From: Chondrosia reniformis
Lineage: Eukaryota; Porifera; Demospongiae; Chondrillida; Chondrillidae
Reading direction: 5' to 3'
DNA length: 64,000 nt
Assembly: GCA_947172415.1 (NCBI GenBank)
Contig: OX359201.1
Span: 2,356,001 to 2,420,000, forward strand
Part shown: positions 2,116 through 62,019 of the stretch, one piece after another
How the letters are laid out: each line of letters begins with the position of its first letter
How positions within the stretch are numbered: the stretch's first letter is position 1
The notes under the pieces: model-generated
Seen by the model: only the letters and a program-made list of their open reading frames with translations
The model's database searches: none
Told to the model about the DNA's origin: nothing
Program-made: the position numbers and the translations under genes

Positions 2116-5100
2116 ATGGCTGAAAGAAGTCCAACTCGACCTAACTGTGAGTTATCTTTATGTATACAGCTAGATATCTAATATTGTATGCTTGAAGCTC
2201 GGTAATTTATTGGTTATACACTTTTACTCTTACATATAGTATTGTATAAGCGTACAAGAAGGGAAGTTCAATCGCATATTGGCTTGAAATGGCCCGCTCT
2301 AGCTAGAGAACTGGGATTTTCTCAGACAGATGTGGATGGTATAAGGTGCAAGGATAAAGACAATTTGGAAGAACAGATTGAAGGAATGTTGCAGAAATGG
2401 GAAGAAACAGATCCCACTCATACAATCTACCAACTTCTCTCTGCGCTACATGATACAACTACATCAACAGGAGATGAAACTTACAAAAATATAGCAGATT
2501 CTATCTTTGAAAGTTGCTTGAAAGGTAAGCTACCTGTGTATTTTAGTTAGTAGTGTACTGCCATATACGAAGGTCTCATAATTCCAGTCTGAGAACTTCT
2601 GACAGCCAAAAAAGTTTAGCAAAGATCCTTACTGTATTGTATTTTCATTAGTATACAAATAATCCATTACACCATCTCCCATATATAGAACTGTTTAACA
2701 TACACATGCAGCTAAGGGGTTAATACTAACAGAATAGACTGTTTTTCGAGACTTATTATTTACAGAAAGTCTATATAAGGTTTTGGTTAGGGGGCTTGTC
2801 CAAATTATTTTTGTAAAATATAATGTCAAAATGACGTTTGGGGTGGGGTCAAGTCACATGACGTTTTACACTACTCTTACCAAGAAGGTGATGATGAGTT
2901 TGTATGTCCTCTTTGTTCAAGAAGGAAAAGGCCACGTTTACTGAAGTGAGATGAACATTCACACATGCACAACAAGAAAACTCTCTTTTGTAGCAATTGT
3001 TTTAATAAAGTGTTTGTATTATGTATTAAAATGTTGTGTATATAGAAAAGCAGCTTCTTGTGTTGAATCATTGTGTCGTTTTTGAGGGGGAGAGGTCAAA
3101 ACATAATGTCAAAATGATGGTATTTTTTACAAAAATAGTTTGGACAAGCCCCCTTAAGGATATAATTTGAGAGTACATGAAACACATTGTGTGAATAGGT
3201 ATCTTCTTACATGAGTCTTGCAGGCATTTCTTGAAACATTTCTAGCAAAGATTGTATGTCACTGCATTAAGGATTAGATGCTTATGTAAGAGTGTGTAGT
3301 TACTGTATGTACATGTATTACTTTTCTCATTATACATTACAGCCGTGATTGATGAAAAGGTTAGCAATCATTGGAAAAAAATGGCTACTGCATTTAACTT
3401 CTCCCACAAAGATATTGAACCTTTTATGTCCAAAGATGCTAATTTGGCAAATCAAGCTTATGTGCTTGTCCAACTCTTATGCAAGGAGGAAGGATGGCAA
3501 GTCGTGGTATCTCAACTTCCTGAGGTACTTGCTACCATTGGTTACACTGCAAAGGCTGAAAAATTGTCCGAAGACTTCTTTGGTATGTTGTAGGTATATG
3601 CACTCTGTTAAAGCTACCTTGATGTACATGTACATACACATTACACAATGTCATGGCTCATCTTTCAATAATTTTGACATATAAATATTTCAGTTTGATT
3701 TTCAGTTTTATCTGCTGATGATTCTGTGGTCTTCCTTATAATAACTGATTGATTGCTTGTAACTTTTTGACAAACTGTATTCTTAGATGTCCAATAGTTA
3801 CATATGGTTAACCACTTTAAAAATATGGTAATTCTCATTCCGTCATCTACTTTTCATATAGCAATTGTTTCTTTTGTACTTTCCCTCTTCATAACATTTG
3901 ATCAAGAGGATTATCACTTTTGATTATTCATAATGTATATCTTTGTGCTCATCTAGGCATGTCTTTGAATGACCTGAAAGCTCACCTAAAGCCATCCACA
4001 CAATATGAGCCTAGTGATATGGTAATGGTTGTTCATGGAGATAGTCATCTTTATGGTGTAGTAAAGTGGACTGGTACCCTCCCTGGACATGTGGAAAAGA
4101 TGGCTGGTTTAGAGATGGTTAGACTATTTGTCTTATGGAAATGAGCTCTTTATGTCATAATTAGGGATTTATGATTAAGTGTGACCCCCTTATTAACTCT
4201 GACTTTTTGTATATGTAGGAGGACGAATACCCAGTTTTAGAAGATAAACTATGCCAAGGCTCTTACAAAGGCAAGAATTATTTTATTAGTCCACGAGGAG
4301 CCTTCTTCCCGTTTTCTAAATTGCAACGAGATCCTCGAGTTTATGATGACAGCTCAACTATTGCAATAGCACCAGGATTTTCCAGAAATCAGTCAGCTAC
4401 CTTAGATTCTGTAGAGCAAGATTCTCCCCAGCGACACACATCAGCTACTAAAGATGGGGGATCCCCTACTTTAGAAACACCACCTTCTATGAAACCCAAA
4501 ATCCCACCTCAACCGATAGCATTTAACAACCTTGATGAGTCACAATTAGATATGGCTACTCCACCACCTTTTCAAACCAGTGGGGGCGGCCAGACAGAAA
4601 CAATTGTGAAGAAAGTAGCAGAAATACTGAGCCCAACCAGAGAAGAGAAATTTAAGCCAGTGTTTGTACGTGGGAGTAAGAGTATTTATATCTTCCATAT
4701 CCCTGGTGACTTGGCTGGTCTACTAATTGGTAAAGAGGGGGCAACAGTTAAACACATACAGAATGAGAGTAAGGCCAAGGTACTGATAACCTCTAAGAAG
4801 CAGGCCCTTGCCAATGATACTGAGGTAGCAGTGTTTGGCGAGGATAGCAACTGTGCTGAGGCAATCAAGATGATACTTAATCTCATTGAAGAGAAACAAA
4901 GGAAGTTTGAGGCAATAACAGAAATCGTAACCCTTACTGATTTAGAAGCAGGTAAAGTCATTGGTAAAGAAGCCAAAACTCTTCGTATCATCAAGCAAGC
5001 CTCTGGTGCTAAGATTGAAGTTGATCGCAGACCTAAAGGTGAGGTAGCATTTCCAGACACGAAAAGAAAGTGCAAAATCACGGGTTTACCAGAACAAGTA

Positions 5101-5262
5101 GGAACAGCTAAAGAACTCATTGAACAAGTGAGGAGAGGACTGCAGATATCTCCTGAAAAACAGCAGGTCAAATATTTATTGAATAGGCTTGTTCAGGAAT
5201 TTGGTGTCACAGTCCCAGATAAGGCAGACATCAGCGATCAACTTAAATCTTTTAATATATAA
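2116..5262 (+). CDS. Tandem gene A: death-death-CAP-Gly-KH-KH protein, 586 aa
   Basis: Five exons join in phase: 2116-2146, 2240-2524, 3343-3582, 3957-4117, 4219-5262. Residues about 11-105 form a death domain (motifs HIGLKWPALARELGFSQTD and MLQKWEE). Residues 106-185 form a second death-fold domain (EKVSNHWKKMATAFNFS, then QLPEVLATIGY). Residues 205-275 resemble a CYLD-type CAP-Gly domain (LYGVVKWTGTLPG, AGLEMED, YKGKNYF). A Ser/Thr/Pro-rich linker follows. KH1 lies at about 393-465 with an intact GKEG loop. KH2 lies at about 472-546, with its GXXG loop altered to GKEA. Death folds mediate adaptor oligomerisation, the CAP-Gly of CYLD binds NEMO, and KH domains bind single-stranded RNA or DNA. 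An RNA-responsive cytoplasmic signalling adaptor is therefore an inference, not shown. The paralogue follows 306 bp downstream. I know of no named family with this order. Confidence 0.85.
2787..3157. mobile_element. MITE-like element with long terminal inverted repeats in intron 2 of gene A
   Basis: The two ends are inverted copies. The left end reads GGGGGCTTGTCCAAATTAT and continues through TTTTTGTAAAA and an AATGTCAAAATGA block. The right end gives nearly the same on the other strand, GGGGGCTTGTCCAAACTAT. TTA or TTAA adjoins both ends and may be the target duplication. The roughly 370 bp length and lack of an open frame fit a non-autonomous DNA transposon. Confidence 0.7.
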
Positions 5263-5568: not shown

Positions 5569-6662
5569 ATGGCAAGTAGGTACAGTGGTTTAGATAGTGG
5601 TATTTCGTATACGCGTGGTTTTACTATACCTGTTGAAAGTATTACATTATTTGTGTCATGTTCTTATTATCATTGAAGAGCATCGATATCTCTATATATG
5701 TAGGGTGTGGCATCAAATTTGGGACCACACTAAATCTTTAGCCGTATATAATCGTATCTCTTAGATTCTTGGTCCACTTCATAAGTACTTAGGACTACAT
5801 AGTTGCAAGATAATATGGAAATGCTTCACTTATTATTGTAGGTCCTTCCCAACTCAAATTGTATTATAGAGTTGTACAAGGTGTGAAGAAGCAGATTGGT
5901 TCAAAGTGGCCAATGCTGGCTAGCAAGTTGATGTTTAGTCAAACTGATATTGATGCAATCAAAGTTCAGCATCCTCATTGTCTTCACAGCCAAATAACAT
6001 TGTTATTCCTTAAATGGGGCATGCAGTTTGACTCTGGACAAGGAACCGTGTACAAGTTAATTTGTGCACTTCGTTTAGCTGCTCGTGAAAGTAGGGATCA
6101 GGACTACAACAAACTAGCACAGTCCGCATTTAGGGAGTGTTTGAAAGGTAATGCATCATTATGGCAAAAAGCAGTACAAGTGTAAATATATAAGTCAATA
6201 CACATTCCATTTAAGGTTAATATCATGTATTCACATACTATATTCAAGGAAGTTCAACATAGTTTTACATACAATATGGCTAATACATGCCCAGGAGCAG
6301 CCCTGTGCCCTGTAACCATAGCTGGCTAGCATCTTTTATTTGTTTTTTATATGCCTTGGGTGTAATATGTCCTTAAAACTGTAAGGTTCAAACACTGTTC
6401 ACTTCAAATGCAGTTCCTGGTCTCTAAGGACCTTACAACAACCTCCAAATGTAACTCAACTAACAGATATGCCGACCCTGTTGTCAACGAGGGTAGTTTT
6501 GAACTGATTATACATTTCCCATCACCAATGTTATAGACAATGTATGTAACATGTATGGTGCAATTAATACTGTACACCTAACCAATTAACCAATCAATAC
6601 ATCTAGAATGTTATACTTAGGTTTATACAACTCATGCCACATTGGCACATAAATAATAATAC

Positions 6663-6720
<58 letters not shown>

Positions 6721-9600
6721 CATGGACCATCTGTTAGTTTCTTGAGCCAGCCGAAGAAAGTGTTGAAAAGAATTCCACGTAAGTCCAGAATATCTGTCGC
6801 TAGGAGACTTGCAACCCTGGTCGAACAAGTGGTCACCCGCAACGACATTCCCACGTGGTTAGCGCTCCTGCAGTTTCCAAAGAAGTGCCTATTTACTCCA
6901 CCTAGAGGCGGAAAGCGCTGGAACCTGGCATCCTTGGTAAACAACCAAGTTCTCCAGGAGTCACACAGCATTCAAATCGAGGCTCAAAACCCTCAGCTCA
7001 GTCGACGCCCAGGTAGACCCAAAGCTAGCAACAAAGCACCCATTGACTTGCTTGCTGCCAGAGTTTCAGGTAAGTTGGAAGAAGGCGACTACAGGGGAGC
7101 TGTAAGGCTAGCCTGCAGTGAAGATGTAATTGCCGAGCACAACGGAGAAACACTGGAGGCCCTTAAGGATAAACACCCCCTTGCCCATCCTGGCTCTCAG
7201 ATACCTGACCTGAGCTGCAATGCCACTTTGCAATTCCCAATCAACTCGCAGGTAATTTTGAAGGCGATCACATCATTCCCAAATGGCTCAGGAGGTGGTC
7301 CGGATGGCCTCCTCCCTCAGCATTTGAAGGACCTGACAGGCAGTTCCACTGGTGATGGAGGTGTTTCCCTATTGGCATCCATAGGAGGGCTTCTATCTTT
7401 GATCCTGGAGGGCAGGACTCCACCACCTATACGTCCACTCTTCTTCGGTGCTAATCTCACTGCCCTGACAAAGAAAAGCGGTGGGATTCGCCCCATTGCC
7501 GTTGGCTGCACCCTCAGAAGACTTGCTGCAAAATGCGCTTGCCTTCATGCTTTGGAGTCCACCGCAGCATTGCTGTACCCACATCAATTGGGTTTTGGTG
7601 TCCCAGGAGGAGCTGATGCAGCCGTCCATGCTGCCCGCATCTATCTATCGCAAATGCCTAACAACAAGGCTCTCCTCAAAGTAGATTTTAGGAATGCTTT
7701 CAACAGCATTAGACGCGACAAGATGCTGGAAGCTGTTGAAGCATACATCCCGGAATTGTTGTCATTTGTGCATTCGGCCTACTCTGCCCCGTCAATCTTG
7801 TTATGGAATGAGGTCCAAATTCCATCATCAGAGGGAATCCAACAGGGGGACCCACTAGGCCCTTTGCTGTTTTGCTTCACCATCCATGAGCTTATATCCA
7901 GCCTGGTGTCCGAGTTTAAGGTCTTCTTCCTGGATGATGGCACCATGGGCGGCGACCTCGATGATCTGACAGCTGACTTGAAGAGGATTAATGAGGAGGG
8001 TCAGGTGTTGGGTCTGATACTCAACGTGTCAAAGTCTGAACTGATCTCACATGATCAGTCAAAACTGGGCACTATGTTCTCTACCTTTCAAGACCTAGTT
8101 TTTGTGGATCCCAAAGATGCCACCCTGTTGGGCTCCCCTCTAGGTCCCAATTCCATGATTGATTGCCTTCACAGTCAAATCAATCAGTTGAGGTTGGTTG
8201 GAGAACGTCTTTGCCATCTCGAAACCCATGACGCCATTACTATCCTACGTCACTCACTTGCAATCCCGAAACTTCTCCACATACTCAGGACATCACCAGT
8301 TTTTTCTTCACCTCTTTTGGTATCCTGGGATGAGCTACTCTTGTCTGTTTGGGTCAGAATCACAAACATTGATTTGAGACTGGGAGATCCATCCTGGTTA
8401 CAGGCATCACTTCCAGTCTCATCTGGTGGTCTAGGGCTTAGGAACGCCTCGCATCTTGCACCCTCTGCTTTTTTGGCCTCTGCTGATGGAGCTTCCGCCC
8501 TGGTACAGAAACTACTTCCACCACACCTACAATCCTCACCCTACAATGATAGAGAGACTGCTCTATCCACTTGGAAACGTGGCCTACCGGAAGACACACC
8601 CCTGCCCTCTTGCAGTTTACGTGGCCATCAGAAGTCATGGGACCAACCCAGAGTTGAACAGCTTTACCTATCCCTCCTGTCCAACTGTGACAATGACATA
8701 TCTAGGGCCCGTCTTCTTGCAGCTGCCTCAAAGCACTCTGGAGCTTGGCTTAATGCCCCTCCAGTCTCCTCCCTTGGTCTGCGAATGTCCAACGAAACTA
8801 TTCGCATAGCTGTGGGCCTACGGGTGGGAGCTGCCATCTGTCACAACTGCGAGTTTTGTGGCAGGGAGGTCGACCAGCTTGGCCATCACGGTTTATCATG
8901 CAGATACAGTCTGGGCCGCCTTGCTCGACACAATGCGTTGAACAGCATCATCCATCGCTCCTTGGCTGCAGCAAAGATTCCTTCCCGCCTGGAGCCATCT
9001 GGTATCCACCGCTCAGATGGCAAACGCCCCGACGGTGTCACCATGACCCCATGGTTGGAAGGCAAGTTCCTTGTCTGGGACGCCACTTGTGTCGACACCT
9101 TTGCGAGTCCCACAAGCACAAGTGTGCCTCAGAGTGTGGAGCAGCTGCAGCACATGCTGAAGGAGAAAAGGCCAGCAAGTACTCCAGCCTTGACCGTGCC
9201 TACTCCTTCCAGCCCATTGCGATTGAGACCTCAGGCTCAGTTGGCCCCAGCACCATGTCTTTCCTGAGGGCTCTTGGCCATCGTTTAAAGACGACCACAG
9301 GAGAGCCTCAGTCTACTGCATTTCTATTGCAAAGGCTCTCTGTGGCCATCCAGACTGGGAATGCAATCTCAGTGTTGGGCTCCCTCGGACCCACCTCTAG
9401 ACTTGGACTTTATTTTATAAGTAAACGTGTTATAAGATCACTTTTCATGTATAATTATTTAATGTTTGTGTATCCTGTATTATTTCATCTAGTATTTTAT
9501 TGTATATGGACACTTAGGCCTTTTCTTTTCTTAATCCTGTTACCTCATTCATGCCCTAATTACCACCAATCATCATCCTTTTTCCATAATAATAATAATA

Positions 9601-9656
<56 letters not shown>

Positions 9657-10915
9657 GGGCATTCAATACAGACAGATTACCACACCTGTCAAAGCAAGAT
9701 GCTCTCTTTTTGATTCGTTGTGCATTAGCTATTCCTAAAACCTTGTACCTCCTCCGCACTGCACCATGCTTTCACTCGCCCCTCCTTGAGGTGTTTGACC
9801 AGGAGCTTCGTTCCTTACTGAACTTGACCCTTAACATCCCCTTTGAGGACCACCATACTTGGTTGCAGGCAACTCTCCCTGTTGGCTGTGGTGGCCTTGG
9901 TGTTAGAAGGAGTGTTCAGCTGGCACCTTCTGCCTTTTTGGCCTCTGCTGCTGCCTCCTCACCACTGATCCAACAACTTCTACCAGGTAGGCTCACTGGT
10001 GTATCTTATGTCCCTAAAGAGGATGCTCTTAATCTTTGGCTTCAATCAGTGGATTGCCCTCCTCCATCTTCACCAAGGGACAGGAAACAACAGGCCTGGG
10101 ATGAACCCCAGTATAAAGCCACTTATCACACCTTAATTGAAAGTGCTGGAAATAGCGTCAGTCGTGCCCGTCTCCTGGCGGCAAATGTGAAAGAATCTGG
10201 TGCATGGATCAATGCCCTGCCCATCTCCGCTGTTGGGTTACGTATGAATGATGATGAGGTACAGCTTGCAACAGCCCTTCGTCTTGGTGCTCCAATTTGC
10301 CATCCATACAAGTGTCATCTTTGCGGGCATGATGTTGACCAATACGCTACTCATGGCTTATCTTGCTATCTTAACACTGGACGGCACTTCAGACATGCTG
10401 CTATCAATAACATCATCCATCGGTCCCTTGCAACAGCTAATATTCCATCTCGGCTGGAACCATCAGGTCTCTCTAGGTCAGATGGGAAACGACCTGATGG
10501 TGTAACCATCACTCCCTGGACAAGAGGTCGCATCCTTATATGGGATGCTACATGCATTGACACATTTGCTCCATCCTATGTGGAAGAAGCAACCAGAGAG
10601 GCTGGTTCAGTGGCTGCTATAGCCGAAAGCAGGAAAAAGAAGAAGTATGAAGAGCTTTCAACCATTCATGAATTCACCCCAGTGGCAATCGAGACTACTG
10701 GCGTGATGGGACCAGAAACCATGGAGTTTATTCGTAATCTGACAACCAGAATTAGATCCATCACAGGGGAGGACATGGCACACTACCATCTCATCCAGCA
10801 GCTGGCATTTGCCACTCAAAAGGGGAACGCGATGTCCATCATGTCAACAATGAACTAAACAAATTTATATTATTGTTATTATTTATCCATTATCCATTGT
10901 AAATTTAAATTTTAT

Positions 10916-10982
<67 letters not shown>

Positions 10983-13522
10983 TATGTCTTCATACATGTA
11001 ATTCTTTGTTTCCAGGTGTTTTTGATGAAAAGGTTAATGAAAGCTGGCACCTCTTAGCTAAAGCTTTCAATTTTTCCCCAGAAGAGAAGAGGGACTGTAC
11101 TCTAAAGGATCCCAATAGTAAACCTACTCAAGCATACGAGTTTACCTGTAAATTATGTGAGAAGTTTCATTGGGACTTGCTTCTTAAACTCCCAATGGTG
11201 TTGAAGGAAGTTGGATTTGAAGAGAAAGCTAATGAAATATCTAAAGATATCTTTGGTATGTTAATATAGGACACTTAAGCATCCTCAATCGTTAAGATTA
11301 AGAATATATATATTAAATCCTAACGAAGTGGACAAGTAGTTTGAGTTAGCCCCACATGTTTTTAAACTCGAAATACTTGTTTTTTTACTTAAAGTGCTTG
11401 CTAAGTTGAAGTTTAAGTTTGAATTAATTCATGATATTAATTCATTTGAAGGCATTGCTATAGTTAAAAGGATATACATTGATTTATAAGCAATTCCAAT
11501 AATCCTTAGGAACACCACTGACAGATCTGCAGTCCCAGTTGTATCCAGAGTGGCAGCCCAGTCTGAACGATTTGGTTATTGTCACTGTGGATGACAGTAC
11601 AATGTATGGCACAGTGAAATGGATAGGGACTCCCTCGGGTTGTCCATGGCCCATGGCTGGACTTGAAATGGTATGTACGTACATATACGTAGTACATAAA
11701 TTTCACAAGAAGTATGTATTTACCACCAGCAATACAGCATGTATGTATGTTACTAGTTTTATGTATAATATTTGTACAGAGTCGTAGGATGTGGTCTGGC
11801 TGGTCCATGCAGTTTTGGTCGTTGGAAACCTTTTGTACCCCACACACTTGTAAAATTCTTTTAATTTCTAGGTCAGCACTAGGAAGATAATTCTGCTGAG
11901 GTCATACCCATGTAAATTTTCCCTAGTCGTTACAGCTTACTCAAGTTCTCCTCATCCACATGTTACAGCAATTTTTCCTTTTGCAAAATTATAACGGTGA
12001 AAAAATACCTTCGCATTATTTCTTATACTGTGATAACTTTTAAATTGCCTCCTACAAATTTTCAACCATTAAATGTATACAGTAAAACCTCTAGTCCGTA
12101 TCGTATCCAACTCCTCTATTCACTAGATAGAAACCTCAGAGCCAACATTGTGTGTCAATGTATATACGTATGTATGGATATTCAAAGAGACAACCCACCA
12201 GATTTACTAGAATGAGACATATATAAACCAATGGCTTTGAGTATCCATCTTATTTTTGTGTTTTGTAGGAGGAGAAATATGATTGTGTTTCAGTGCAGTT
12301 TAGTGATGGTAGATATGAAGGACAAAATTATTTCAGATGCAATGAGTTTTATGGAGCTTACTTTCCTGTGTCCGATATCCAACCAGATCCTAGATTTCCA
12401 GCTGAGACAGATTCAGTGAAGAGCTTAGCTGCCTCTCTTATGAATGTTCACCTTGATGATCCATTTCCAGATTTAAGGTTGCCATTTAGCAGCTTGAGAC
12501 TGTCAGTCTCCTCGGAAAACCAGTCTGCTGAAGATTCACTGGTTCGTGATTCACCATATCGTCGTCAGTCAGCTGGAAACCAAGCTACAGTACAGGGACT
12601 TCAGTCCTCGCCGCTTACCGAGAGATGTCCAATTCCAGAGACCTCGCCATCTTCTTTTAGCACAGTTGGTTATGTGCTAGGGACTTCAGAGCAAGTCAAC
12701 GTTTCCCAAAGAAGTCAGTCCAGTCCCAAAGACTCACATAATCAACAACCACTTGGATCACAAGTGCCCAGACAGGTTAATCCACTTGATAGTGTCTTCA
12801 AACCTACAAGCCCAGCACATAACCAGCCCATAGGTGGATCTCATATCCCACCTAGGAGACAGGTTTCAAGTAGTGGAAGTGGTCATCAGGAGGAATTCCA
12901 AGATATTCAACCACTGCTTGATCTTGGTGAGAAGAAGGTGTACTGCCTACGCTTTGCTGGTGATTTAACAGGCCTGTTGATAGGAAGACAGGGAAACAAT
13001 GTCCAGAGAATCCAAGATGAAAGCAATGCCACTATACACATCCTGAAGAACAAGGCTAGTTCCCTTTCTGAAGACTGCAAAGTTATTGTGATTGGTACAA
13101 AGGATCAGTGCATGAATGCAATCGGGTTGATGGTTGACCTAGTTAACGAGAAGAGGGAACGTCTTCATGCATATACTGAGATCTTGATCTTGACAGATGC
13201 TGAAGCTGCTAGAGTGGTGGGTCAGAATGGTCTTACTATTCGAACCATTCAAAGGGTCTCTGGTGCTAGAGTTGATGTTGATCCTCGCCCAGAAGGTGTG
13301 GTTGGTTTAATCAATATTCGAAGAGAATGCAGGATAAAAGGGTCAACAAAACAAATTGAAGAAGCCAAGAAGCTGATAAGAGATGTCCAACAAGGGAAGG
13401 ATATTACTCCTCTAGTTTTCCTGTACATGCTGTCACGACACCTAGAAGGCTTGGAAGGAGTGAATGTTTTAAGTTCAGTTGATCCTGAGGAGTTAGCAGA
13501 GCTATCAGGTCTACTACCCTGA
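5569..13522 (+). CDS. Tandem gene B: death-death-CAP-Gly-KH-KH paralogue, 663 aa
   Basis: Exons 5569-5599, 5842-6147, 11016-11255, 11510-11670 and 12269-13522 join in phase. Exons 1, 3 and 4 have the same lengths as in gene A (31, 240 and 161 nt), and all intron phases match, so this is a tandem duplicate. The first death domain is about residues 17-112 (KQIGSKWPMLASKLMFSQTD). The second death fold is about 113-192 (EKVNESWHLLAKAFNFS). The CAP-Gly is about 213-283 (MYGTVKWIGTPSG, AGLEMEE, YEGQNYF). A longer Ser/Gln/Pro-rich linker follows. KH1 is about 467-541 (GRQG loop) and KH2 about 547-621 (GQNG loop), so both KH loops are intact, unlike gene A. The short first exon is inferred from its position, ATG, 31 nt length and phase. 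Intron 2 (4.9 kb) carries two retrotransposon copies. Function is inferred as for gene A; divergence in the linker and KH2 suggests different RNA or partner preference. Confidence 0.85.
6650..6719. repeat. (TAA)n microsatellite, left flank of retrotransposon copy 1
   Basis: About 20 consecutive TAA/AAT triplets directly precede the first coding-like base of the retroelement, marking its 5' junction in intron 2 of gene B. Confidence 0.95.
6720..9585 (+). mobile_element. 5'-truncated RLE-type non-LTR retrotransposon, copy 1 (reverse transcriptase, zinc finger, endonuclease)
   Basis: One long frame runs from about 6719 to 9267. Visible reverse transcriptase motifs are motif A DFRNAFNSIRRD, motif B GIQQGDPLGPLLF and motif C FFLDDGTMGG, where FLDD replaces the common F/YADD. 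A C-terminal zinc-finger-like stretch (CEFCGREVDQLGHHGLSC) and a PD-(D/E)XK-like endonuclease block (KRPDG, then VWDATCVD) follow, as in the R2/R4 type of non-LTR elements. There is no plausible start codon, and the reading frame opens directly out of the TAA tract, so the 5' end is truncated. Near 9105-9115 the homology with copy 2 moves to another frame, which continues to about 9400, so this copy is frameshifted and presumably inactive. The 3' end joins another (TAA)n tract. Confidence 0.85.
9586..9655. repeat. (TAA)n microsatellite between the two retrotransposon copies
   Basis: A run of TAA triplets, with one TATA interruption near 9602, separates the 3' end of copy 1 from the 5' truncation point of copy 2. 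Confidence 0.95.
9656..10917 (+). mobile_element. Second, more heavily 5'-truncated RLE-type retrotransposon of a different subfamily
   Basis: The frame is open from the TAA tract to the stop at 10858, about 400 codons. It matches the last half of copy 1 at the protein level (for example AIPKTLYLLRT, APSAFLASA, RPDGVTITPW, WDATCID) but is clearly diverged, so it is a separate insertion and not a duplication of copy 1. The zinc-finger-like CHLCGHDVDQYATHGLSC and the endonuclease block are intact, and the C-terminus is unbroken, ending STMN. The reverse transcriptase core is absent. A short AT-rich 3' end runs into (TAA)n. Confidence 0.85.
10918..10981. repeat. (TAA)n microsatellite, right flank of retrotransposon copy 2
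   Basis: About 20 TAA triplets directly follow the 3' untranslated end of copy 2. They stop 34 bp before the exon 3 splice acceptor of gene B. Confidence 0.95.
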
Positions 13523-14703: not shown

Positions 14704-17700
14704 ATGAAGAAAACTACACAGAGGCTATTCTATGGTCTATTTGTCCTCCTATCCTTGTGGACTGTTGAAACAATTGAAGGTACATGCCACGATGGCTCAG
14801 TCGGTTGCATAACACCTTTAGGAAATATAGCGCTGCATCGAACAATTAACGCTAGTTCCACTTGCGGAGATCCACCTATGGAGTTTTGCGTTTTTCAAGA
14901 CCTGGAAGAGTGTTCCGTGTGCAACAGTTCTGATCCGCTATACGTCATACAGTCAATCAATGATGACGATACCACAACGTGGTGGCAGTCCGAAAATGGA
15001 GCAGATGATGTTGTAGTTCAGCTAGATCTCGCCTCTTCCATGCTCTTCTCCTCCACCTACATATTATGGAGGTCACCTCGCCCTGAATCGATGGTGTTAG
15101 AAAAGTCAGTAGATAATGGCGCCAACTGGATTCCTTTTAGATATTTTTCTTCAACTTGTCAAGCAACATTTGGTCTCTCTCAATTTAATGTTCTAACGCC
15201 ACCAAACTCTACGGAACCAGTTTGTCTAGGGAGTGAAAGCCTTATCATGCCATCAGATTTTGGAGAGGTGAGGGTTGACCCACTACAGGACAGCTAGAGA
15301 TACGTGTACATATACAGTCATACTTTGCCAATTATTATATTAGAAAGAGTTTTTATCTCAACAATACATACTGACCTGAAGGTGTTCTATAGGAATATAC
15401 TGTATATAATAGTTGTATGGGGCTGCTTATGTATAAAGTATTCACTCGAGCACCCCTGTATTAGTCAGTGTACTAGTTTTGGGAGTGGGGGAGAGCAGCA
15501 TTGGTGCTAAAGTACCTTCCCTGATTTTGATTAGCGATATTCTTCCTAGGAGATTATACTTCAAATATATCCTTCCTGTTACATTTCTGTATAACTATGA
15601 TTTCTAAGTCCATCCCTGTTTTGTCCCTGCTGTCTGTAGATAACATTCAGTATCAATGACCAAATAGCACCTGGGTCAGTGAGTGCAACAGAGGTGTTGG
15701 AATATCAAAGGATGACAAATGTACGACTGAGGCTAGTGAGGAGACATAGTGTTGGAATGGATATGAGATATGAATACTACGCAATAAGGGAATGGTCTGT
15801 CCAGGGGACTTGCATGTGCAATGGACACGGAACCTGTACTCCCAGAGAGGAAGAACAGCTCACTGAAGGAAAGGTACAGTTAGTGGTTTCTATGGTTACG
15901 CTACCCTAGACACCCAAGAAAAATCTAAGATGCCATTTTCCTACATGCTATGCCTATTCTGTAAAAGAGCCTATAGGGGAACTAAACCTGAAGAGAGCTT
16001 TGGATGAGGATACAGGAGTCATTTCTTCCTTCTTTTCCCTTCTTTCATCTTCTTCTCCACTGGGTCAGACAGCCGTTTCTGGGAATTCCACCCTTCATCA
16101 GTGATCCTGGGAGTCTTTGTATTTTCTTTATTTTGATCTTCTGTGAATCCTTGGCCCTTGGCTCAACCACACTAAACCCTATACAATAAATGTCATATTT
16201 TCTGTATTAGAACAAACACATGTTGATAGAGTTGTTTTGTCTGTACTACTCATTATCTTAGATATATTCTGGTTGTGACTGTAATCACAACACTGCTGGT
16301 GACCACTGTGAAATGTGCCTGCCATTGTTCAACGATGCTCCTTGGATGCCTGGCAATGATACGGATGCTAACAGCTGCCAAAGTAATGGAAACTAAATCT
16401 TAAATGTGTTTTGAGTATCATTTACAAGTTTTTAAGATTTATAGGTCCAAGTTTACATGCTTAATTACATTACATGTAGCTAATGGCTAAGGTGAATATG
16501 TATATAGTATATACGTAGGTGCTCTTATAGTTTTCTCCACACCTAAGGAGCTTGCATAGGTAAATTAATAGTAATAGAATGCTCTTTTTAGTGACTGTCA
16601 ATCCTTGTAAACTGAGCAGGAATGAATTTCCTTACATGACACTCTCCTACACAGATTTTAGGGTAATAGTTCTTAAACACATTTGAAGCACTATTGTCAA
16701 CATAGCATACATACATACATAGGTACATATACATATGTATAATGGAACATACATAGACTAATCCTTGTACTCGTAACCTTTTCATGTAGGATGTATGTGT
16801 TTTGGACATGCTGCTAGTTGTGTATATAATGATACTGTTGGAGGAGTGTGCAACTGTATGGACAACACTGATGGTATAGACTGTGGCACCTGTCTACCTG
16901 GCTTCTTTGTGGATGGAACTGTGCTACCAACTGATAGAGAAGTTTGCAAGCGTATGTTGCATTTGAATATAGTGATTTCTACATTATCAACAAGTTCTTA
17001 TTAGCATATTAGTGTGTATATAATTATGTAGGAGGTTAACTTTCTACTGTAAGCCTTTTATTATCTTTGGGATGGTACATCCTTCGACCTTTGAGCGTTT
17101 AGAAATGCACTTTGGTTTCGTTTTTGGTCAGCCTTTTATTTCTCTAAAGTAATTAAACATCTGATAAAAGAACACTAAAAATATATGTAATGTATGTTTG
17201 CCATTTTCACTCTTTCAAAATTGATAACAGCAGGCTATATGAAATAGTAGGCGTACCTCAAAATGTAGATATATTGAAATTAATCAACTTTTAATTCTGT
17301 GAATATCATGAATTTCCAGTTTTATCTGTACGTATATGTATTATACGTTTGTCTGATAGCTTGTGACTGCAATCCTGATGGTACTATTGGAGGTACAAAT
17401 GTTTGCGAAGTGGCTAATGGAGATTGTCCATGTAAAGCTAATGTGGACTTGATCGCTGATAGACAATGTACCACCTGTGTTGATGGCTTTTTCAATCTTA
17501 CCTTTGCCAATGTAGATGGATGTGAAGGTATTTCCTATATGTATAGTTGCTATATATGTAATTCATACAAAATGGTTAAAGATCACATGTTTGACAATTT
17601 TGCACAGTATCCAGAAACTAGAGCATACGTACATCTAGTGTACATTAAGCCTTGCTGAAGAAGCCTTTAGATGACCTGCTAGGCCTTTAGAGTTAAGACA

Positions 17701-60963: not shown

Positions 60964-61020
60964 CCGATATCTGTGCTACTAAACAAAAGCAATTAAAGCT
61001 GTGTTTTTGTGAATCTTACA

Positions 61021-62019
61021 ATGGGTATGGATCAAACTAACAACACTCCCTACGCATCTCCGAGCAGTAAGGGAGCATCTCCCAGTGTGTTTCGTGTCAA
61101 CGATTTCGAAAGCGGAGAGCGTCACAGTGGGGGGTGCAAAAGCAAAACCGATGGTAGTAGACTCACCCGTTCTTCTAGCAGCGGAAAGGTAAAGGGCAAT
61201 TCTCCTTGCAAAAGAGCAGACAGTCCGTATGCGCGTTCCAGTTCAGAGGACAGCGATGGAAACTCTGATGGAGGATGCATCAGAAAGAAGCAACGCCGAA
61301 TGGCAGCCAATACAAGAGAACGCAATCGCATGCACACAGTGAATATAGCTTTCGATATGCTCAGAGAAATGGTCCCTTCTTATCCATCAAACCGAAAGCT
61401 TTCCAAGATAGAAACTCTCAAGTTAGCTTGTGCCTACATAGCTGACATGGAGGCTTTGTTGAAAGAACATCAACGAATACAAGGTGAGGATGTCAGTTTG
61501 GCTGCGAATAGAGTAAGCGTGAGAAGACCAAGCTTGGATGGCTTTCTATCAATAAAGCAGCACCCAAACCAAATCCAACAAGCTACCACTGCTCAACATC
61601 AAACACACTATCATCACCATCCCCACCCCAGTCCTCCTCCATATGAGCTGGTTCATATGACTACTCCAACTCATTCGCAGGCATACAGTCCTAGGTCTTA
61701 CCAGTCATCTGACAGTGAATTAGCATATTCTCCTCCAGCCCCAGACCAGGTATATCCATACTTTTGTACTGTGTCTACATCGCAAAATCATAATAGACCT
61801 GTATTAATGACTCGTGTTTCAAGTGATTCTGCTGTTTCCATGCCCCACAGTGGGCTCGTATCCCACTCAGTGACTTACTACCCCACACCATCACAACCAA
61901 TGTCTTGCGACCAAGTATCTCAATCTACAGTTGGATCCTCAACAGCGACAAACACCACTCTGAGTCACAATGTACTAAATCAGTTGGATCCTGGTTCAGG
62001 CTGTATGATGGCACAATGA
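61021..62019 (+). CDS. Group A bHLH transcription factor, 332 aa, single exon
   Basis: An uninterrupted frame encodes a bHLH domain at residues about 88-146. The basic part is RKKQRRMAANTRERNRMHTV, with the ANTRER core typical of E-box-binding group A proteins. Helix 1 is NIAFDMLREMVPSY, the loop PSNRKL, and helix 2 begins SKIETLKLACAYIADMEALL. The N-terminus is Ser/Gly-rich with a basic patch. The C-terminus is rich in His, Pro, Gln and Ser, as in activation domains. ATG 61021 was chosen as the first ATG; ATG 61027 is a close alternative. The protein should act in the nucleus as a dimer and regulate cell-type genes. Affinities resemble the TCF15/twist/atonal side of group A, but a subfamily cannot be fixed by eye. 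A TATA-like motif precedes it. Confidence 0.9.
   Translation: MGMDQTNNTPYASPSSKGASPSVFRVNDFESGERHSGGCKSKTDGSRLTRSSSSGKVKGNSPCKRADSPYARSSSEDSDGNSDGGCIRKKQRRMAANTRERNRMHTVNIAFDMLREMVPSYPSNRKLSKIETLKLACAYIADMEALLKEHQRIQGEDVSLAANRVSVRRPSLDGFLSIKQHPNQIQQATTAQHQTHYHHHPHPSPPPYELVHMTTPTHSQAYSPRSYQSSDSELAYSPPAPDQVYPYFCTVSTSQNHNRPVLMTRVSSDSAVSMPHSGLVSHSVTYYPTPSQPMSCDQVSQSTVGSSTATNTTLSHNVLNQLDPGSGCMMAQ

Follow-up and report, generated by a model that had tools for sequence, protein, structure and literature searches.

Two genes lie in tandem on the forward strand near the start of the window, i.e. the whole stretch of 64,000 nucleotides of the Chondrosia reniformis genome that was analysed (contig OX359201.1, here C13:2356001-2420000). 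Both encode the domain order Death-Death-CAP-Gly-linker-KH-KH, an order that has been duplicated here and conserved for a long time. The upstream gene, gene A, comprises five exons. Exon 1 (2116-2146) holds the ATG, ten codons and one further nucleotide before a GT donor in phase 1, with an in-frame TGA upstream of the ATG at 2104. Death domain 1 is encoded by exon 2 (2240-2524), which as an exon alone scored 51.7 bits (E=1e-13) against Pfam Death and returned PDB matches to PIDD, RIPK1, ankyrins and FADD. Death domain 2 follows in exon 3 (3343-3582; Pfam Death 27.1 bits as an exon alone, cut-off 22.6). Exon 4 (3957-4117) encodes the N-terminal half of a CYLD-type CAP-Gly domain and ends in a phase-0 junction after AGLEM, and exon 5 (4219-5262) encodes the C-terminal half, a Ser/Pro-rich linker, KH1, KH2 and the stop codon, as placed by Pfam on the joined protein.

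All four introns are bounded by GT/AG with phases 1,1,1,0, and joining the five exons yields one open frame of 586 aa, exactly the exons, coordinates and protein length given in a first-pass annotation made from the letters and their open reading frames. The two death domains and two KH modules proposed there were likewise supported by Pfam profile searches on the joined protein, which detected KH_1 (E=1.9e-25, 88.8 bits, cut-off 21.5) and Death (E=6.2e-20, 71.6 bits, cut-off 22.6), each in two stretches. The CAP-Gly call passed narrowly, with CAP_GLY (E=4.9e-6) at 26.8 bits standing 0.3 bits above its cut-off of 26.5. Within intron 2 of gene A, at about 2785-3160 of the window, two inverted copies of a stretch with GGGGGCTTGTCCAAA were observed by eye; they resemble a small inverted-repeat transposon.

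Gene B (5569-13522, 663 aa) is located directly downstream, starting 306 bases past the gene A stop. Its exon 1 (5569-5599), weak on its own, has 31 nt and phase 1 as in gene A. Exon 2 (5842-6147) encodes death domain 1 (Pfam Death, 44.4 bits), and exon 3 (11016-11255) a divergent death domain 2 with 38% identity to gene A exon 3 and the same length of 240 nt and phases. The N-terminal half of the CAP-Gly domain is found in exon 4 (11510-11670; 47% identity to gene A exon 4, both 161 nt), and exon 5 (12269-13522) carries the C-terminal half, a long linker, KH1, KH2 and the stop, as located by Pfam on the joined protein (CAP_GLY 29.5 bits; KH_1 82.4 bits in two stretches). The Death cut-off of 22.6 bits was exceeded by both death exons of gene A and by the first only in gene B, the second death exon of gene B alone having matched no Pfam family at E up to 0.1. 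This exon is nevertheless read as a probable death domain because of its identity to gene A exon 3 and because a two-sequence profile of exon 3 from both genes matched ankyrin-3 (chain 4o6x, E=8.8e-4) and ankyrin-1 (E=0.058).

Comparison of the two genes revealed a common exon plan, with lengths of 31/31, 285/306, 240/240 and 161/161 nt (gene A/gene B) followed by a long last exon, and identical phases throughout. Junctions 2, 3 and 4 align residue for residue between the two proteins; no alignment was obtained at junction 1, where the N-terminus is poorly conserved and exon 1 has only 31 nt. Protein identity is 38%, and identity at codon positions 1, 2 and 3 is 0.515, 0.644 and 0.320 (581 aligned codons), the pattern expected of long purifying selection. 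At the nucleotide level the two regions share five short matches, the longest of 45 bases and the best with E=0.007. The identities by codon position and the nucleotide comparison together indicate that the pair is old, with both frames held open and the architecture kept. Since gene B repeats the exon plan and phases of gene A under this pattern of long purifying selection, the gene A model is not a product of chance. Furthermore, a recent chimera or assembly artefact was ruled out, as third codon positions are near saturation while the exon plan is the same.

Intron 2 of gene B contains reverse-transcriptase element(s) with AAT-type simple repeats (6607-10858, forward strand). Pfam RVT_1 was matched (E=1.6e-18) in a frame of 886 codons at 6607-9264, and in a second long open frame (9602-10858) the stretch 9659-10855 had no Pfam match. 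Elsewhere in the window, a laminin-type gene extends from 14704 to about 29000 (Laminin_N E=4.1e-38 at 14704-15294, followed by EGF-like and coiled-coil frames identified by eye), a helix-loop-helix gene lies at 60997-62019 (HLH E=1.2e-19), and from 62269 onward the beginning of a gene of the sulfate-transporter family is found (E=1.4e-8).

The assignment of the CAP-Gly domain to the CYLD type in the first-pass annotation was borne out by PDB matches, a common phase-0 intron and tree placement. Searched alone against the PDB, the gene A domain matched CYLD chains 7owd, 1ixd and 7owc at 7.1e-6 to 1e-5, and the list up to E=10 comprised five chains, the other two of unrelated proteins (0.56 and 1.1) and neither of them a CAP-Gly domain. 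For the gene B domain the same CYLD chains scored 1.7e-8 to 2.9e-8; CLIP4, the next CAP-Gly domain, followed at 1e-3. In both genes the domain is cut by a phase-0 intron after AGLEM, the same residue and phase as in the third CAP-Gly domain (CAP-Gly3) of the CYLD-type loci of this genome (L051-L054). In all four of these loci the CAP-Gly3 exon ends right after AGVEL at a GT donor; the next exon begins right after AG in the same frame in L051, L052 and L054, and two residues ahead of the chosen peptide in L053. CYLD CAP-Gly2 has the same cut in both copies examined, and CAP-Gly1 is cut one codon later; the shared intron is therefore taken to mark the CYLD group, not CAP-Gly3 in particular. Five other CAP-Gly domains in the genome (L001-L005) run uninterrupted across the place of the CYLD intron, with no stop or gap, and in three further ones (L059-L061) the cut lies about six residues beyond it, near GK[N/H]NG; the comparison does not extend to L062 and L063.

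An unrooted tree of 17 CAP-Gly domains (those of genes A and B, ten CYLD-type domains of four loci and five others) placed the two genes together (support 91) and adjoining CYLD CAP-Gly3 (support 82). The tree leaves aside the other genome matches as well as CAP-Gly2 of L051 and L052, includes L005 with an incomplete start, and represents CAP-Gly1 of L052 by the second gene at this locus. Given the shortness of the domains and the absence of a root, this support is moderate. Taken together, the tree, the intron and the PDB matches make a shared origin of the pair's CAP-Gly domain with CYLD CAP-Gly3 well supported.

The CYLD-type genes form a cluster at C12:7.10-7.26 Mb with at least four genes containing CAP-Gly domains (L051-L054). 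In L054, two frames gave matches to 2vhf, the structure of the CYLD protease (6.5e-11 and 1.7e-23). Downstream of the CAP-Gly domains of L051, L052 and L053, on the same strand, lies a kinase frame (Pkinase 3.2e-25, 5.8e-37 and 3.6e-34, respectively). No protease frame of at least 60 aa was found between CAP-Gly3 and the kinase in L051 and L053, suggesting predicted CAP-Gly and kinase proteins in which the kinase would replace the deubiquitinase.

The loops of KH1 and KH2 read GKEG (residue 410) and GKEA (488) in gene A and GRQG (485) and GQNG (564) in gene B; GxxG is thus kept in three of the four KH_1 domains and degraded in gene A KH2. The best PDB match of the gene A pair was IGF2BP1 (chain 6qey, E=3.4e-12), and the gene B pair matched Nova-1 (4.6e-6), TDRKH (2.7e-5) and others. 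A tree was built from 15 KH domains of the genome, the pair's four and 11 of five further loci. In it, KH2 of both genes grouped with KH2 of a TDRKH-like gene on C9 (support 91), and KH1 was unplaced (support 20); this tree omits 21 of the 36 listed KH matches, mostly a C3 array and short matches. The C9 gene (C9:999500-1009400) appears TDRKH-like by eye, with two KH domains, a hydrophobic N-terminus and tudor-like frames. On family grounds, the KH domains of genes A and B are predicted to bind RNA.

To establish how widely the combination occurs, the genome (117,379,552 bases in 15 contigs) was searched. The published assembly is reported to span 117.37 Mb (117,390,217 in a figure legend) in 14 chromosome scaffolds plus a mitochondrial genome, with 17,340 protein-coding genes annotated at Ensembl (PMC12181767). 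The second death exon of gene A gave two matches in the genome, both within the pair. Gene B exon 5 gave four, namely the pair, the TDRKH-like gene and a gene with three KH domains on C14, and gene B exon 4, at E up to 10, gave three, the pair and one weak match (0.061) in the CYLD cluster. Within 30 kb of the listed Death matches lay 4 of 36 KH matches, all of the pair, and 1 of 24 CAP-Gly matches. This CAP-Gly match, at C14:250498, was set aside, its frame resembling tubulin-folding cofactor B by eye and not a death gene. The combination of Death, CAP-Gly and KH was accordingly found only here in the genome. Another copy cannot be fully excluded, because the Death list covers the 150 that were scored of 220 candidates and the CAP_GLY profile, with its 24 genome matches, misses split domains such as the pair's CAP-Gly exons, each too short alone. 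Outside the animal, pattern matches in GTDB genome contigs and IMG/VR (104 and 179, respectively) included none that was confirmed, as expected for an animal gene.

At least 150 Death matches (of 220 candidates) were counted genome-wide, many clustered on C2, C13, C11 and C10, and death-domain genes look strongly expanded in C. reniformis. Rel-homology matches were found as exons at one place, on C10. Both the death-domain and the Rel-homology proteins would be candidate partners of the pair.

In human CYLD, CAP-Gly3 binds ubiquitin at its Ile44 patch via Leu475 and NEMO on a separate surface; Pro or Arg at the Leu475 position blocks that mode of ubiquitin binding, and KIF13B, with Phe there, does not bind ubiquitin (PMC8511506). 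Residues were numbered from 7owd, in which residue 1 of chain B was taken as 467 (construct 467-552); on this count the printed chain has the expected L, V, E and F at positions 475, 487, 507 and 545. A profile search that included the sponge CYLD domains returned CYLD at E=3.8e-20, a circular value, and was used for residue positions only, since the profile contains the sponge's own CYLD domains. The residues at L475 are Met (gene A) and Leu (gene B) by profile alignment or Val in both by ungapped counting, hydrophobic either way and never Pro or Arg. At the other contacts, V487 corresponds to Val and Thr, E507 to Glu in both, and F545 to Val and Phe in genes A and B, respectively; the Arg numbered 488 in PMC8511506, which is 489 by the 7owd count, is Lys in both.

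Conservation of the ubiquitin surface is thus only partial, with Thr for V487 in gene B and Val for F545 in gene A, and ubiquitin binding by the pair's CAP-Gly domain is possible. The CAP-Gly3 domains of the CYLD genes in this sponge carry Arg, Ala or Glu in the L475 column, suggesting that ubiquitin binding at this site may not be ancestral to the group. The first-pass annotation had also invoked the contact of the CYLD CAP-Gly domain with NEMO. This step is unsupported by the present comparisons, as a NEMO profile had no match in the genome, a weak negative run without a positive control; a CYLD_phos_site profile, likewise run without a positive control, had none either.

Homotypic assembly is characteristic of death domains, and binding of single-stranded nucleic acid of KH domains. 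With a probability of about 0.5, the most likely role of the two proteins would be that of a death-domain scaffold that binds RNA and, via its CAP-Gly domain, ubiquitin or an IKK-type partner. The KH pair would bind single-stranded RNA or an mRNP, and binding to RNA or ubiquitin would concentrate the protein. Its death domains could then co-assemble with other death-domain proteins, which are very many in C. reniformis. The CAP-Gly domain may bind ubiquitin chains, as that of human CYLD does, and so place the protein in ubiquitin-based complexes upstream of NF-kB or cell death; alternatively, it may let the protein compete with CYLD for such complexes. The direction could run either way, with RNA regulating the signal or the signal regulating mRNAs. 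The direct link from RNA to inflammatory signalling proposed in the first-pass annotation remains an inference, and nothing in the sequence of either gene ties the protein to inflammation over mRNA or germline regulation.

Clearly less probable, and still the best of the other readings, is that the proteins are mainly RNA regulators, i.e. TDRKH- or IGF2BP-like mRNP proteins that control mRNA stability or translation with no relay of a signal, the death domains and CAP-Gly domain serving only to localise them. This would be consistent with KH_1 being the strongest domain match and with the grouping of KH2 with that of the sponge TDRKH-like gene, and the long Ser/Pro-rich linker in exon 5 would suit an RNA-binding protein. 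However, the death exons are kept in both paralogues with no known need for them in mRNA control, and KH1 was not placed in the tree.

Two further readings are unlikely, to a similar degree. In the first, the pair would encode innate-immune RNA receptors of the sponge that lack a helicase or TIR domain. Foreign or misplaced RNA on the KH pair would cluster the protein, the tandem death domains would seed assembly of a signalling complex, and the CAP-Gly domain of CYLD origin would anchor this complex to ubiquitin chains or to a complex of IKK type. In the second, the proteins would act as decoys or inhibitors of CYLD-type complexes, with the CAP-Gly domain taking CYLD's partner in the absence of a deubiquitinase, the death domains forming a dominant-negative adaptor and RNA tuning the effect. 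The CYLD ancestry of the domain, the presence of CYLD genes in the same genome and the absence of a UCH/USP family among those listed for either gene suit a decoy, but an activating scaffold fits these observations equally well. Finally, that the death exons and the CAP-Gly/KH exons belong to separate genes is very improbable and was rejected: the longest introns (818 nt in gene A and 4868 nt in gene B) would leave room for it, but two diverged paralogues share exon order, phases and near-equal exon lengths with three of four junctions aligned, and the CAP-Gly domain is split over exons 4 and 5, so that at least these two must be joined.

Should the scaffold role hold, the pair would represent an animal adaptor, made by capture of a CYLD domain, in which RNA binding is linked directly to signalling by death domains and ubiquitin. 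Since sponges branch early among animals, it would also illustrate how flexible the wiring of NF-kB and cell-death networks can be. Independent of function, domain shuffling is plain in the pair, and a relative can be traced, namely the CYLD CAP-Gly domain with its intron.

Several known systems share parts of this architecture. CYLD itself combines three CAP-Gly domains with a deubiquitinase, whereas genes A and B have one CAP-Gly, two death and two KH domains. No USP/UCH deubiquitinase domain was among the 11 (gene A) and 7 (gene B) Pfam families listed at E up to 5, and the last exon of both genes reaches its stop after KH2, leaving no C-terminal protease. The stop is the firmer of these two points, since Pfam likewise gave no match for the genuine CYLD protease of the sponge when its exons were searched singly. 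TDRKH and IGF2BP have in common with the pair a tandem KH arrangement, reflected in the KH2 grouping and in IGF2BP1 as best PDB match of gene A, but the pair has death domains and a CAP-Gly domain in place of any listed tudor or RRM family; specifically, no tudor domain after the two KH domains was among the Pfam families listed for either gene.

The closest published parallels come from marine invertebrates. A large family in the demosponge Amphimedon combines TRADD-N with one to three death-type domains and with C-terminal domains that vary (PMC8195603), resembling the pair in its N-terminal death-type domains followed by a lineage-specific domain mix; CAP-Gly and KH are not among the C-terminal domains named for Amphimedon in section 10 of that paper, and the term 'CAP-Gly' is absent from its main text. 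Among the papers listed in literature searches, none combined 'death domain', 'KH domain' and 'CAP-Gly', and none concerned the architecture of genes A and B. In the oyster Crassostrea virginica, DED and TRADD-N are reported fused to KH, RRM, macro and ART domains (PMC8195603), a lineage-specific family that shares with the pair a death-fold N-terminus and KH domains. The domains as described there (DED, TRADD-N, RRM, macro and a PARP14-like ART) differ from the two Death, one CYLD-type CAP-Gly and two KH domains of genes A and B, for which TRADD-N, macro, RRM and ART were not among the Pfam families listed, bearing in mind that a divergent TRADD-N may be absent from Pfam. The first-pass annotation had considered the architecture undescribed, and within the searches made the exact domain order is indeed new, but the death-fold and KH theme was already in print. 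Because of these oyster fusions, genes A and B are best regarded as a new variant on a known theme.
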